From Aurantimicrobium minutum (GTDB lineage: Bacteria > Actinomycetota > Actinomycetes > Actinomycetales > Microbacteriaceae), in NCBI RefSeq assembly GCF_002355535.1, contig NZ_AP017457.1:1426001-1490000 (forward strand): a stretch of 64,000 nt of DNA, given 5' to 3'. Below, piece by piece: positions 58,596 to 64,000 of this stretch; the stretch's first letter is position 1, and every line of letters begins with the position of its first letter. The translations under genes and the position numbers were made by a program. Below the pieces are notes generated by a model that saw only the letters and a list, made by a program, of their open reading frames with translations, was not told the DNA's origin and searched no databases.

Positions 58596-58671
58596 GCGCC
58601 CGTAGCTCAACGGATAGAGCATCTGACTACGGATCAGAAGGTTGGGGGTTCGAATCCCTCCGGGCGCACCA
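58596..58671 (+). tRNA. tRNA-Arg (anticodon ACG)
   Basis: The 76-base cloverleaf starts GCGCCCG and ends CGGGCGC-A with an encoded CCA (58669-58671). The anticodon loop CTACGGA gives ACG (reads CGU, arginine); the T arm is GGGGGTTCGAATCCCTC. It is immediately followed by a tyrosine integrase gene, the typical tRNA attachment site arrangement. Confidence 0.96.
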
Positions 58672-59077
58672 ATAAAGACCTTTACATTCAAGGTTTTCGT
58701 TCAAGGCCTAGCTCCTATTTCCAAGGAGCACTTTCATGGTCAGCCAAAAAGTAAGCCAATCTGGCAACTTTCAAAAAAATCTAAGTCAAAAGTCGCCGTG
58801 TCGTACGAATACCACCAATGGTTGCGATGAAATTTTAAACACTAGATCAGACCGGCAAGATTTATACGGTGTGCCTGCTCAGCCGCTTGAACTTGAAAAG
58901 GTGAATAGCAACGGACTGAGCGTGAGCCGCTTTTTGGACGAGTCGGTTCTGATAACTGAATATACGACGCAGCCCAACTCAGTGACTGATGAAAGTGCCG
59001 CAGAGATAAAGCTGACTTCCAGAAATCGTGGTGGATCCACTGCGCCGACACCTAGCTCACGTGAGGGGGTGTCCGGC
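58672..59077. other. spacer between tRNA-Arg and integrase; candidate attL region
   Basis: The 406-base gap has lower GC than the left part of the window. Near the tRNA two copies of TTCAAGG (within 58680-58710) occur as a short direct repeat. A reading frame in phase with the integrase stays open from 58736 but has weak starts; nothing else is recognised. The tRNA 3' end would be one attachment half-site; the other end lies outside the window. Confidence 0.4.
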
Positions 59078-60295
59078 ATGCCTCAAATCGGCAACGGATC
59101 CATCTTTGAAAGTAAAACAGCACGCGGTAAAACCGTTTGGAAAGTTGAAATATCAATAGGAACGGACTTTAGAGGAAAACGTAAACGAGTTCGTAGGACT
59201 GCTCACAGCTACACCGAAGCGATCAAACTACAACGCTCGATGCTATTGCAACTTGAACAAGGAACGCTTGGGCAAAGAAAAACTGAATCATTTAGACAGT
59301 ATTCGAATTGGTGGCTTGAAAATGTGAAGCCGCTGAGGGTTAGAACTTCAACCCTCACTGATTATCAGGATCGCTTGATAAGAAATGTGTACCCAGCCTT
59401 TGGTGATCGAAGGCTCAGCGATATAACTCCAGTAGATATTGAAGAGTGGCTTGTATTTCTTGCTCGGCAAGGAAAATCAACAGCAACCATTAACGGAGCT
59501 AAACAAGTATTGGGAGCCGTTCTCGAACATGCCTTTAGACAAGGAAAGTTATCTAGAAATCCCGCAGCGATTGTCACCAGACTCCCTAAACGACATGACG
59601 AACCAACTCGGGTGAAATCTCCTTGGACAAAAAAAGAAGTGCAATATGTTCTCGAGGCGTCACACAACACAAATCAAGACCTATTTGTGCATCTCGCATT
59701 AATTTTCGGACTGCGAAGAGGAGAAATTTTAGGTCTCAAATGGGAAGATTTTGATTTTCCAAATGGAATCCTCCACATAAGAAGAAGCCTCAAAGAAGAG
59801 CGATCAATAAACAGCGACGGTAGTGGTTCGGTAAAGCTGGCATACTGTTTGCCCAAAACCAAGTCAAGCGCTCGAAAGTTATACCTAACTCCCTTGGTTC
59901 TCGCTTCCATTCAGAGACATCGGGAATTTGTAATGAAACTGAAGAATAGCGCTGGAAATTCTTGGCAAGAACATGATTGTGTCTTTCCAAGCTCTATCGG
60001 CACTCCAGTAAGCCCAAGCAACATGGTGAAGGCATTCAAAGCCTTTCTTCTTTCGAACCAAATCCGAGCTATTCGAGCGCATGATATGCGCCATACAGCC
60101 GCAGTGTTAGGCCTCGAAGCAGGGGTGAGAATTGAAGCCGTCTCCCAAGGCTTAGGACATTCGCGCATCGACGTTACAAAGTCCGTCTATGCCCCTCATG
60201 TCCAGCCTCTAATGGCCGAGTTCACGATCGGAGTAAGTGAATATATTGCCCCAGAAGATGAAATGGTTCGAGTCCGGGAGGTTTGTGCCTCATGA
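59078..60295 (+). CDS. tyrosine-type integrase
   Basis: A 405-residue site-specific recombinase. After an AP2/SAM-like arm-binding N-terminus and SAM-like core-binding region, the catalytic residues are R213 (FGLRRGEILGLKW), K262 (TKSSARK), H335 and R338 (AHDMRH), H361 (GLGHS) and nucleophile Y371 (SVYAPHV). It sits next to the tRNA-Arg on the same strand and most likely inserted the element there. ATG at 59078 has GAGGGGG upstream; a 114-residue in-frame extension to 58736 lacks family similarity. It overlaps the next gene by four bases (ATGA). Confidence 0.9.
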   Translation: MPQIGNGSIFESKTARGKTVWKVEISIGTDFRGKRKRVRRTAHSYTEAIKLQRSMLLQLEQGTLGQRKTESFRQYSNWWLENVKPLRVRTSTLTDYQDRLIRNVYPAFGDRRLSDITPVDIEEWLVFLARQGKSTATINGAKQVLGAVLEHAFRQGKLSRNPAAIVTRLPKRHDEPTRVKSPWTKKEVQYVLEASHNTNQDLFVHLALIFGLRRGEILGLKWEDFDFPNGILHIRRSLKEERSINSDGSGSVKLAYCLPKTKSSARKLYLTPLVLASIQRHREFVMKLKNSAGNSWQEHDCVFPSSIGTPVSPSNMVKAFKAFLLSNQIRAIRAHDMRHTAAVLGLEAGVRIEAVSQGLGHSRIDVTKSVYAPHVQPLMAEFTIGVSEYIAPEDEMVRVREVCAS

Positions 60296-60897
60296 AAAAC
60301 ACCAATTTCACGATGGTGCCAAATGCATTCATTAGGTCACCACATTTAGATCCGTATGAAAAAACAATTTGGATTTATCTCAAATCTAGACAAGGAGTAA
60401 ACGCCACATCCTGGCCGTCACATCAAACCATTTCTAAAGAAACATCGATTGGGAAATCAACTGTAAAGAGAAAAATCAATAACTTGATAGAGAAGGGATT
60501 GCTCCAATCCACACAACGATTCGTTGGGCATGAACAGACCACGAATACATATACGGTCCTCTTTATGCCTGATGAATTTCTGGATAGTTCACCCAGGTTC
60601 ATAGCGAGCCCACCTGAGTTCACATCGAGCTACAAAGAAGATACAAGTCAAGAAGATACATTCAATAACACCCCGTTTACAACGGGGGAGAAATCTTGGA
60701 CTAATTTGCAGCCTGAACGAAAGATCACCGAAAAGCAGAGAGAGTACTTACGCGACTTGATAGCTGAGTCAGAAGATTGCTCAACAAATGAAGCGGATGA
60801 ATACATTGATGAGTTGATGCCTTTGTCCCAGGTCGAAGCTAATGAGTTAATTAGTGAGTATTGGGTTGAATTACGCAAAAACAATGTCTACGGATAG
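60292..60897 (+). CDS. helix-turn-helix protein of the integrated element (HTH_36-like)
   Basis: The 201-residue protein begins MKNTNFTMVPNAFIRSPHLD and contains a winged helix region SWPSHQTISKETSIGKSTVK followed by RKINNLIEKGLLQSTQRFVG. This HTH_36 pattern is common at the N-terminus of replication initiators and regulators of phages, plasmids and actinobacterial integrative elements. The C-terminal half is acidic (ESEDCSTNEADEYIDELMPL). The start overlaps the integrase stop, so the two are co-expressed. Replication role is an inference. Confidence 0.7.
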   Translation: MKNTNFTMVPNAFIRSPHLDPYEKTIWIYLKSRQGVNATSWPSHQTISKETSIGKSTVKRKINNLIEKGLLQSTQRFVGHEQTTNTYTVLFMPDEFLDSSPRFIASPPEFTSSYKEDTSQEDTFNNTPFTTGEKSWTNLQPERKITEKQREYLRDLIAESEDCSTNEADEYIDELMPLSQVEANELISEYWVELRKNNVYG

Positions 60898-60996
60898 GAG
60901 GGGGGCACCCCCTCCCCCCACAGGCAAGTCGAGGCGTCACGGTTAGCCGACACACACATTGGCAAAACCCGACAGGGGGGTCACGCAAGTTTGAGC
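60897..60996. other. GC-rich segment with hairpin, candidate origin or regulatory site of the element
   Basis: GGAGGGGG (from 60897) pairs with CCCCCTCC (60908-60915) around a short loop. The following about 80 bases are GC-rich and hold further G runs (CAGGGGGG), contrasting with the AT-rich genes either side. It could be a terminator without a T tract, or an origin-type signal. Confidence 0.35.
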
Positions 60997-61006
60997 AATT
61001 TAAGAA

Positions 61007-62698
61007 TTAATATTGCTTCTCGATTTCTTCAATAATTTGGTCCAAGAAGAAATCTATTTGTTGTATCAAAATAAAGTCACTTGGTTCATCTGGTGAGAAA
61101 GTTTCTGTCTCACCACCTTTAGGCATCTCCTCTTTATCCAAATATGGCGGAAGCATCAAGTCATTTCTTAGCCAAAAAAGAACTCTTCTTTCTAGTTCAT
61201 GGACAACACTTCCGTTGTGGTGGACGACTTGTTTCTTAAGCTGAAAACCCTGTTTTTCCCAAAGCCTGAGCCTTCCTTTGGAAGCAGAAATATTCGTAAT
61301 GCCTATCTTTCTAGCCGCCCTTCCGAAGTCATTATTTCTCTCTACAAAATAGAACAATCCCGGTTGCCCATCGTTAAATCCTGTCTCTGCGCATGCTGGG
61401 CAGCTACTTCCTGATTTGATTTGGGTAGGAGTCGTTTTCCAGGTCAAGTTACAGTTCAGGCATCTGGCAAGATATTTTGAACGTGCTTTTATGGGCTGTT
61501 CTAACCATTCAATTTCTGCTAGTTTTGCTCGCTTATCCCACTCGCCGTCAGGAACAATTACTCCCGAGCAGACCGGACATCCTGAGCCTCTAGCAATCGT
61601 GGAGGGGATGACTTTCCACACATAGTTACAGGTCAAACATCTTGCAGACTTTTTCTCTGAATTATTAGTTGGGGCTTCAATCCATTCCAGACCAGCCTTT
61701 GAGGCCCTGTCGTTCCATATTTCAGGAGAAAGAAGTCTTTTACCTCTCCGAATTACTTCTTTGCACACAGGGCAGCCAGCCCCTTGGGAAACTGAACCTG
61801 GATTTGCCTCCCAAACAAATCCACATTCGATGCATTGTGCTTTTGTTTTTGTGTGTCTACCCTTGACATCTTCTAGCCAACGAAGATTTTCTGCTGCCGC
61901 CCTTTCATCCCAAATCGCTTGTGGCACCTGAAGGTTCCCAGAGCACGAGGGGCATCCAGAACCTTTATTTATGTTTGAGGGAGTCGGAAACCAGGTGTAT
62001 GAACATTTGAGGCATGTAGCTTCTGTCTTTGTAGATGCCTTATCAGGAACACCCTTTGACCAACGTATTCCCGCGGCTTTTGCTCTTTCATTCCACTCTT
62101 CTGGAGATATTTTCTTTCCTGGAAAGGATCTGTTTTTATTGGCACATAGGGGGCAACGGGATCCTTGCTTTAGGTTCCCAGGGTTCGCCTCCCATTCGTG
62201 TCTACAAATTAAGCAACGCGCAAGTGTCTTTGAATGGCTATTTCTGGGGATGTCGATCCACTCAATATTTGCTGTAATTGCAAGTTGCTTCCAGGCAGCT
62301 ATTTGTTTTTCATCCTGTGTGCGTTTACTGGGGCATCTTGGATGCCCAGTCTTTGAAATTTTTCTCGGGTCAGCCTTCCATGTAGATCCGCACAAAAGGC
62401 AGCGTGCAAATTTGGATTTATCAGATAAAGTTTCTGGAGTTTGGTCTACCCACTCGGCCTGAACAAGATCAATTCTTCTTTGCCATTCGTCTACATGAAC
62501 TCGGCTATTTAACCGCGCACATGGATTGCAGGATTTTCTTCCTTTTGCAATGTTGGCTGGGAATACTTCCCACTCATTCCCGCAGTCTAGGCACCTAACT
62601 CGAGTTAGAACATCGTTCCTATGTGGGGGATTATCAACCCACTGTAAATTGAGGGCTGCAGCGCGATCTTCCCAGACCTTGCCAGAAATTTTCGGCAT
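61007..62698 (-). CDS. seven zinc-ribbon repeats fused to a GIY-YIG-like nuclease domain
   Basis: The 563-residue protein has seven tandem modules of about 60-65 residues, each with a WxxRAxxxxLxW start, a CxxC (C36/C39, C100/C103, C162/C165, C229/C232, C289/C292, C354/C357, C413/C416), a W-rich middle (WEANPG-like) and a second CPxC (C57/C60, C182/C185, C249/C252, C309/C312, C374/C377, C433/C436). In repeat 2 the second pair is degenerate (C122 with K125). The modules resemble DUF4379 probable zinc-ribbons. The C-terminus has LFYFV (448-452), KIGIT (464-468), R476/R478 and E501, the pattern of GIY-YIG/T5orf172 nucleases. DNA targeting by the repeats and cleavage by the end domain is inferred. 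It is divergent from the HNH gene and sits on the probable integrated element. Confidence 0.75.
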   Translation of the reverse strand: MPKISGKVWEDRAAALNLQWVDNPPHRNDVLTRVRCLDCGNEWEVFPANIAKGRKSCNPCARLNSRVHVDEWQRRIDLVQAEWVDQTPETLSDKSKFARCLLCGSTWKADPRKISKTGHPRCPSKRTQDEKQIAAWKQLAITANIEWIDIPRNSHSKTLARCLICRHEWEANPGNLKQGSRCPLCANKNRSFPGKKISPEEWNERAKAAGIRWSKGVPDKASTKTEATCLKCSYTWFPTPSNINKGSGCPSCSGNLQVPQAIWDERAAAENLRWLEDVKGRHTKTKAQCIECGFVWEANPGSVSQGAGCPVCKEVIRRGKRLLSPEIWNDRASKAGLEWIEAPTNNSEKKSARCLTCNYVWKVIPSTIARGSGCPVCSGVIVPDGEWDKRAKLAEIEWLEQPIKARSKYLARCLNCNLTWKTTPTQIKSGSSCPACAETGFNDGQPGLFYFVERNNDFGRAARKIGITNISASKGRLRLWEKQGFQLKKQVVHHNGSVVHELERRVLFWLRNDLMLPPYLDKEEMPKGGETETFSPDEPSDFILIQQIDFFLDQIIEEIEKQY

Positions 62699-62901: not shown

Positions 62902-62986
62902 AATAACCTACGCAACCGAACAAATCGGTATTCATCCAGGAATCACATAGCAGTCTCTGATTTAATTGTTACGAACTGGGGGTACC

Positions 62987-63745
62987 TTGATTGACAAAAA
63001 AACTTGCACGCGCTGCAGTGTTGAGAAGCCATTAAGCGAATTCAACAAAAATTCACGTTCGCGAGACGGGCTAACTCCCCATTGCAAAGTTTGCCGCAAG
63101 CAACATCGAGAAGAAACAAAAGAACAAATCTCGATGAAAAATCGTCAACGATATCTTGCAAAAGGTGAGGAAATCAGAGAACGCTCACGTAGATGGCGCG
63201 ATGAACACCCTGAAGAAGTAATTAACTATCGGAAGCAATATCGAGCAGAAAATAAAGAACTACTTGCTTCAAAAGATCGAAAATATCGCGAAGAAAATGC
63301 TCAAAAAATAAATCAAGTTCGCAAAAAATACAGAGAAGAACATAGACAAGAGCTAGTAGAGAAAGTCCGATTGTGGGCTCAAAATAACGTAGAAAGAGCG
63401 AATACCAACAAACGTGTCTGGGTTCAAAATAATCCAGAAAAGGCATCTGCGGCAGGAAAACAATGGCGCGATCTTAATCCTCTCAAGCGCCGAGAAATGA
63501 AAAACCGCAGAAGAGCAAGATTAAGATCAAACGGAGTTTACGAAATCAGTCAACAATTTCTAGAGGATCTCTACTCATCTTCATGTGTAGCGTGCGGGAA
63601 ATCAGAAGACATAACTGCAGACCACATAATTCCAATAGCCCGAGGAGGGCTGCATTCTGAGGAGAATTTGCAGCCCCTATGTGGAGCATGTAACAGCAGT
63701 AAGCGCGATAAAACAATGGATGAGTGGCAGGGAAGAACGAGATAA
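62987..63745 (+). CDS. HNH endonuclease with N-terminal zinc knuckle and long charged linker
   Basis: About 252 residues. The N-terminus has a CxxC...CxxC zinc knuckle (CTRCSVEKPLSEFNKNSRSR, HCKVCRKQ), followed by a highly charged helical region with repeated YR-x-EN-type segments (about residues 45-190; EEVINYRKQYRAENKELLAS) that looks coiled or DNA-wrapping. The C-terminal HNH domain has CVACGKSEDITADHIIPIA (His of DH is catalytic), the Asn in EENL and PLCGACNSSK. Such phage HNH proteins nick or cut DNA. TTG at 62987 with GGGGG upstream is the preferred start; TTG at 62966 is an alternative. Confidence 0.8.
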   Translation: MIDKKTCTRCSVEKPLSEFNKNSRSRDGLTPHCKVCRKQHREETKEQISMKNRQRYLAKGEEIRERSRRWRDEHPEEVINYRKQYRAENKELLASKDRKYREENAQKINQVRKKYREEHRQELVEKVRLWAQNNVERANTNKRVWVQNNPEKASAAGKQWRDLNPLKRREMKNRRRARLRSNGVYEISQQFLEDLYSSSCVACGKSEDITADHIIPIARGGLHSEENLQPLCGACNSSKRDKTMDEWQGRTR

Positions 63746-63807: not shown

Positions 63808-64000
63808 ATGACTCCAGCTGAATACTTGAGAGCACTTGAAAGCATCAGGCGACTTGGGCGCGAGCTAGGCTATACGCGCACGGCGTCTGATCCCGCAGGT
63901 GAAGTGATGGAGCTTGTCACCGCGCATGCATTTGATGGAGAGCTTGCACCGCCAAGTACAAAATCAATTGATGTAGTTGCGGCCAATGGCGACCGAATAC
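63808..64000 (+). CDS. N-terminal fragment of a protein resembling restriction-like (DUF6998) domain proteins, cut by window edge
   Basis: The 64 visible codons read MTPAEYLRALESIRRLGREL at the start and contain GELAPPSTKSIDVVAANGDR near the end of the window. This last part resembles the entry to small nuclease-like domains in which a QVK-type active-site strand follows; that strand is outside the window, so function cannot be confirmed. Another gene in the same AT-richer segment and direction as the HNH nuclease. Confidence 0.45.
   Translation, partial: MTPAEYLRALESIRRLGRELGYTRTASDPAGEVMELVTAHAFDGELAPPSTKSIDVVAANGDRI

Follow-up and report, generated by a model that had tools for sequence, protein, structure and literature searches.

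The window analysed is a stretch of 64,000 nucleotides from Aurantimicrobium minutum (contig NZ_AP017457.1). Its last part carries an island whose integration site is a tRNA-Arg (ACG) gene (58596..58671, + strand). The left attachment site attL (58626..58680, +) was delineated by two direct repeats, D2 (35 nt, 86%) and D5 (22 nt, 82%), which are offset by one base relative to each other. The copy of attL, attR, was located 6.55 kb away (L014:8179-8232, corresponding to the would-be positions 65179-65232 beyond the end of the window). With an integrase and a duplicated tRNA 3' end present, the segment is a tRNA-integrated element. It is 6.55 kb long and has a GC content of 44.4% compared to 53% on either side. 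Reading away from attL, the island encodes a tyrosine integrase (58736..60295, +; PF00589, 3.3e-19; phrog_1), an HTH_36/DnaD-like replication-type protein (60283..60897, +; PF13730, 5.4e-12; phrog_270), the array nuclease described below (61007..62698, -), an HNH/endonuclease VII-like nuclease (62966..63745, +; PF01844, 4.5e-11; phrog_1035) and a DUF6998 protein of 157 aa, whose gene (63808..64000, +) continues beyond the window end. The sixth island ORF gave an N-terminal zinc-ribbon match below the cut-off. Searches of Pfam with all six main ORFs and of PHROG with the first four revealed no match to a phage structural family, so the island is either the remnant of a prophage or an element resembling a satellite.

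The HNH/endonuclease VII-like gene is divergent from the array nuclease gene, thus the island has two nuclease genes. A 20-nt direct repeat (90%) was found near both island ends, at 58739-58758 (L014:1739-1758) and at L014:8066-8085; these are possibly integrase arm sites. Directly 3' of the HTH_36 gene a GC-rich palindrome was noticed by eye (approximately 60897-60915), which is perhaps a terminator or a control site.

The array nuclease gene was absent from five sister genomes of the genus. The same five genomes gave no match to the TetR gene lying downstream (a null result of little weight), so that the window copy offers no empty site for comparison. Searches with the HTH_36 and TetR proteins yielded no empty or closely related island. 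Distant relatives of the HTH_36 protein occurred in 6 of 299 genomes of the family, the own genome included, and an integrase-like ORF was found near the relative in three of the four regions read. Scans of viral contigs with the nuclease, the integrase and the HTH_36 protein detected no relative.

The array nuclease gene starts with ATG and encodes 563 amino acids in a frame that is intact over all 563 codons. Against Pfam, the protein matched CapR with 79.8 bits (cut-off 24.2; 1.7e-22) and DUF4379 with 74.3 bits (cut-off 24.5; 9e-21), each in five stretches. These scores are far above the cut-offs, indicating that the finger matches are not due to chance. A match to HypA (31.6 bits, cut-off 28.9) contained no individually significant stretch and was discarded as a cross-match between zinc ribbons. 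PHROG families 559 ('HNH endonuclease') and 681 ('endonuclease') were also matched. The PADLOC defence models gave nothing above noise (best E 0.87). All five DUF4379 matches in the genome (1.62 Mb, one contig) fall within this frame, indicating that the gene is present in a single copy.

Seven modules precede the C-terminal domain. They are encoded on the minus strand at 62510..62686 (module 1), 62324..62497 (module 2), 62135..62305 (module 3), 61943..62101 (module 4), 61754..61924 (module 5), 61559..61729 (module 6) and 61382..61552 (module 7). The first CxxC pairs of the seven modules begin at residues 36, 100, 162, 229, 289, 354 and 413, with a spacing of 59-67 residues. The second CxxC pair is present in six modules, and module 2 has CPSK in its place, thus the four zinc ligands are complete in 6/7 modules and module 2 is without the last one. 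Both tryptophans are kept in 7/7 modules, the arginine of WxxR in 6/7 and the following alanine in 6/7. These residue counts, together with the CapR and DUF4379 matches, confirmed what the sequence-only reading had described: seven tandem modules with paired CxxC motifs on a W/R/A framework, with one zinc ligand lost from the second. The modules are CapR/DUF4379-type zinc fingers. In the full-length model the succession of helix, strand, hairpin and short helix recurred along the seven modules. The overall pTM was low (0.29), as would be expected of an array that resembles beads on a string.

The C-terminal domain (residues 440-563; 61010..61381, -) was more difficult to assign. When compared alone with Pfam, it matched just MUG113, with 14 bits and thus below the cut-off of 22.3. 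Among 13 aligned tails, window included, which were picked for carrying the tail, the residues Y, G, R, E, G and E were invariant (13/13). They occur in the order GIY, YIG, R, E and a final GxxE, the core motif and residue order of GIY-YIG domains. Entries in which no such tail was seen, L007, L010, L011, L012, L020, L021 and L022 (the last of these without a sensible frame), were omitted from this alignment, and L030, which has a T5orf172 tail, was kept outside it for comparison. At E <= 0.1 Pfam recognised T5orf172 in five of the 13 tails (best E 0.0012) and GIY-YIG in one; the tail of the window protein was in neither group. Thus, of the GIY-YIG claim made earlier for the C-terminus, the order of the motifs held up, with the six residues invariant, but the profile score of the window's own domain stayed below the cut-off.

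Predicted structure pointed in the same direction as the invariant residues. The C-terminal model (pLDDT 80) is folded as strand-strand-helix-strand-helix. It gave 30 matches at E <= 0.001 to the viral models of BFVD, including phage JEP8, four proteins named CapR and one named T5 Orf172; a viral protein named GIY-YIG was next in the list (E 4.7e-3). The first refuting result named in the sequence-only reading, a C-terminal domain unlike GIY-YIG, was thus not obtained, the model of the C-terminus matching T5orf172/CapR-type phage proteins. In the PDB, Foldseek detected nothing similar to this model at E <= 0.001. In VIA-align, Slx1 chains ranked 2, 5 and 6 with Z 5.4-5.8, which is under 8 and supportive at most, and tied with the first-ranking chain, a yeast mitoribosomal one (Z 6.0). 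The aligned part of Slx1 is presumably its GIY-YIG domain. Direct profile comparison was weak: two alignments (A1 and A4) reached only 2.1% and 5.8% probability in hhalign against the T5orf172 domain of pVp-1. With the C-terminal domain alone, tblastn found no match in phages at E <= 0.01. A tail query from the Krischvirus relatives reached phage T5 at E 1e-4. On the basis of the relatives, the invariant residues and the predicted fold we assign the C-terminal domain to the T5orf172 type of GIY-YIG domains, as a divergent member with predicted nuclease activity. For the window protein the assignment is weak by profile; in combination with the relatives, the invariant residues and the predicted fold it is convincing.

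Matches to the array nuclease were found in 253 of 50,697 phage records, 37 of 72,556 plasmid records, 6 of 396 genomes of the phylum and 7 of 299 genomes of the family, the own genome counted in both of the latter and all numbers being given within the limits of the searches. A crude pattern identified a GIY-YIG-like tail in 17 of 26 homologue entries (two of which, L017 and L033, are one place) and an EDxHD/Vsr-like motif in two. The crude pattern missed at least two further GIY-YIG-like tails, those of L028, in which all invariant residues align, and of L030, which is T5orf172 by Pfam. The second refuting result named in the sequence-only reading, repeats that clearly bind RNA or protein and have no nuclease partner in homologues, was not obtained either. 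The finger array seems to occur in combination with different kinds of nuclease.

Phage homing endonucleases that combine finger repeats with a T5orf172 domain are already known from the literature (PMC10448857, accessible parts). In that account repeated fingers, of the CapR/DUF723/DUF4379 type, are followed by a T5orf172 GIY-YIG-type domain, an arrangement also seen in the window protein, and recombination within and between such genes is described. The window copy differs from them in its location on a bacterial tRNA island, in having seven modules and in a nuclease domain that stays under the Pfam cut-offs. The top viral match of the full-length model was a gene of Escherichia phage JEP8 (E 3e-25). 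The associated TMq was low (0.25) because the beads of the array are flexible. The JEP8 protein matches CapR in six stretches and has the same tail motif, but it is encoded by a phage and its tail is only ~25% identical. By their titles and opening parts of abstracts, of the papers in the CapR, DUF4379, T5orf172 and RB49 literature (including PMC2988022) none dealt with a nuclease of this kind that is carried by a tRNA island of a bacterium. The array, the GIY-YIG-family domain, the integrase and the tRNA repeat, taken together, support one part of the earlier proposal, that an integrated element encodes an array of fingers of a DNA-binding type followed by a domain of the GIY-YIG family.

The nearest homologue, L032, comes from a Micrococcales metagenome-assembled genome and shares 49% identity with the window protein in a full-length alignment. 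It has six modules, one fewer than the window protein. In the full-length alignment the gap falls at window module 4, with linker parts remaining, although block identity allows equally well that module 3 is the one absent. The gene belongs to an insert of 2 kb that has an sseB-like gene on one side and DUF1844-infC on the other. Among the 30 best SseB loci (194 genomes had a match), both neighbours were scored in 16 and were at most 230 nt apart; in the other 14 the second neighbour was unscored. Within a set of 59 relatives of the L032 genome the gene was present in that genome only. By presence and absence, L032 is an insertion, at a place where no gene is broken. A relative of the window integrase was not found in the L032 genome, a null result that alone shows nothing, and no other integrase was noticed by eye in the 12.35-kb L032 locus. 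Neither the window gene nor the L032 insert has flanking direct repeats of 9 nt at a distance of up to 150 nt. The insert also contains a small ORF (L032:6375-6827) that looks PIN-like by eye and had no Pfam match at E <= 0.1.

Comparison with L032 bears on two alternative explanations. The loss of the last zinc ligand of module 2 is common to both proteins (CPSK in the window protein, CKGR in L032), which argues for an early loss that has been tolerated and against recent decay. The window gene might be a functionless passenger, what is left of a phage homing gene in a prophage remnant that is itself dying, as the lost ligand, the island devoid of recognised structural genes and the five sister genomes without the gene would allow; given the age of the ligand loss and the intact 563-codon frame, we regard this as improbable. 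The parts best conserved relative to L032 are the tail (57-58%) and module 1 (0.67). This pattern, and the presence in the window tail of every residue that is invariant in the tail family, are not what would be expected if the array were a DNA-binding regulator that represses a promoter and whose cleavage function is lost or conditional. Such a role has a precedent in CapR of PLE, a repressor with the same kind of finger (PMC10448857, accessible parts), but for the window protein it is about as improbable as the passenger.

Modules of the window protein and L032 were also compared by position. With window module 4 omitted, in-order pairing was better than nearly all others (4 of 720 pairings, itself included, reach it), but clear in-order best matches were obtained with modules 1 and 2 only, and module 6 gave a tie. 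L032 module 3 was closer to window modules 4 and 5 than to module 3, and window module 5 was closest to L032 module 6. Numbered from the third tryptophan, the columns that best separated module positions in this pair were W-14, W-18, W-11, W-15 and W+5. Of these only W+5 lies between the Cys pairs. The expectation that the modules vary mainly between their Cys pairs was thus not borne out: the variation is spread over the whole module.

Module order was also tested in four other actinobacterial proteins (L033, L034, L035 and L027). Their last five modules keep their order, the observed identity being reached by 0 of 5000 permutations; L025 and L018 were omitted because the pattern found few modules in them. 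The same result (0/5000) was obtained with the pre-hairpin loop alone and with the eight residues after the tryptophan alone, whereas the stretch WW..W alone gave a weak signal (213/5000). Same-position and other-position identity differed most at W-15, W+6, W-14, W-17, W-25, W+5 and W-13. W-15, W-14 and W+5 are thus common to both sets of arrays, an overlap that is suggestive. We do not claim a code shared by the two sets: over 26 columns they were not significantly correlated (rho 0.24, p 0.23), and this rho was reached by 94 of 720 pairings and by 5 of 25 column shifts. The L033, L034, L035 and L027 arrays seem to retain a specificity. Candidate positions for reading a sub-site are the pre-hairpin loop (about W-17 to W-13) and the start of the helix that follows the tryptophan, W+5 and W+6. 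Provided that every module recognises a fixed sub-site, comparing arrays could allow them to be decoded and re-aimed.

Conserved module order would be consistent with an enzyme that destroys phages or competing elements of the host, its array being aimed at some conserved site of theirs and homing being secondary; the order would then have been kept because the specificity was. The location of the gene, on a tRNA island without a recognised structural gene and beside a second nuclease, would suit such a function. So would the known relatives: in the accessible parts of PMC10448857 the finger domain is found in PLE CapR and the nuclease domain in ICP1 Odn, both taking part in the conflict between phage and satellite. 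CapR is described there as a repressor and Odn as T5orf172 plus RepA_N; neither is presented in those parts as an array joined to a nuclease. However, conserved module order is also expected from common descent, and the defence models gave no notable match. A nuclease primarily devoted to interference is the strongest competitor for the window protein, yet a rather unlikely one.

The JEP8 homologue (L031) provided a second view of array evolution. It is located between gp32 and a small ORF that precedes frd, a region present in 65 phage records, from which nine were selected for differing lengths, not at random. Seven of these nine Krischvirus regions (L031, L079-L086) carry an allele of the gene, JSE is without the insert and kvi has another short ORF. 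RB49 and Phi1 are among the phages with the insert. The allele proteins consist of 541, 485, 460, 405, 392, 338 and 269 aa, with 6, 5, 5, 4, 4, 3 and ~2 modules, respectively, as counted by inspection. If the most distant allele, ELT4, is left aside, the C-terminal 114 aa are 81-86% identical and the last 70 aa 94-99% identical in the 15 pairs formed by the six other alleles, and the last 210 nt are 83-100% identical per 30-nt bin. The arrays of the same six alleles (3 to 6 modules) are 31-41% identical, with the exception of JEP8/W115 (62%). ELT4 is more distant throughout, its C-terminal part being 50-55% identical. In JSE a related tail (43.5%) is present elsewhere in the genome. Among the six alleles the nuclease end and the site are constant while the array differs.

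That arrays differ at one and the same phage site does not agree well with simple homing of all alleles to it. It argues that at least some Krischvirus alleles may be aimed elsewhere than at their own site, which fits interference between elements. In a broader proposal, the array would serve as a targeting cassette that can be exchanged: the GIY-YIG end and the site would stay constant, and swaps of single modules or of whole arrays would re-aim the enzyme. These proteins would then be mainly weapons of interference and would not home to their own site; we put this forward tentatively, as a rather unlikely possibility. The principle of mixing arrays and nucleases is already published: in Vibrio phages Barth et al. 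found some genes with unrelated DNA-binding parts and related T5orf172 domains, and the reverse (PMC10448857, accessible parts). The words Krischvirus, RB49 and gp32 do not occur in the accessible text of that paper. Through the phage allelic series it becomes possible to test directly, in E. coli phages, whether these arrays contain a DNA code that can be read.

The position of the Krischvirus inserts, adjoining gp32, also recalls a role in recombination, in which the nuclease would process branched DNA in a resolvase-like manner and the fingers would only keep it on the DNA. Such a role was proposed for T5orf172 from its neighbourhood to genes of single-strand-coating proteins (PMC7824862, accessible parts), and Slx1, a near fold, is a structure-selective nuclease by its entry title. 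Presence and absence of the gene, changing arrays and a bacterial island without such neighbours are unlike a core recombination function, and we consider this explanation very improbable.

The best explanation, to which we assign a probability of roughly 0.6, is that the window protein is a site-specific endonuclease of the free-standing homing type, which is encoded on a small integrative island and has the array as its targeting part. By analogy with the published CapR finger of PLE, the zinc-finger modules would lie along a long target site in DNA and provide specificity. The conserved catalytic-type residues suggest that the C-terminal T5orf172-type GIY-YIG domain would cut beside the array site. 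The target would be a copy of the locus devoid of the gene, in an incoming phage, a rival element or a related chromosome. Repair would then copy the gene into the cut locus (homing), or the rival would be removed; in both cases the carrier would be favoured. The array would evolve by loss or gain of modules; in the phage relatives whole arrays differ and the cutting domain is retained. Homing is supported for the relatives by their insertions (L032 and Krischvirus), not for the window copy.

In A. minutum a phage-type array nuclease thus occurs, intact and as a single copy, on a minimal island in the chromosome of an actinobacterium whose genome is small (1.62 Mb). The evolution of the array can be approached from two sides, through the difference of one module between homologues located at different loci and through the phage allelic series. 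Nucleases encoded by phage group II introns, in which CapR-like fingers are combined with EDxHD/Vsr domains, also carry three to five fingers before the nuclease; they differ from the window protein in the nuclease domain and in being intron-encoded (PMC12350094, accessible parts). Two of the homologue entries, L010 and L021, have arrays of the same kind that end in an EDxHD/Vsr-like motif rather than in a GIY-YIG tail. On a Streptomyces plasmid, a homologue with approximately nine modules and a tail of the same kind (L024:2437-4596) is located directly after lasso-peptide genes.
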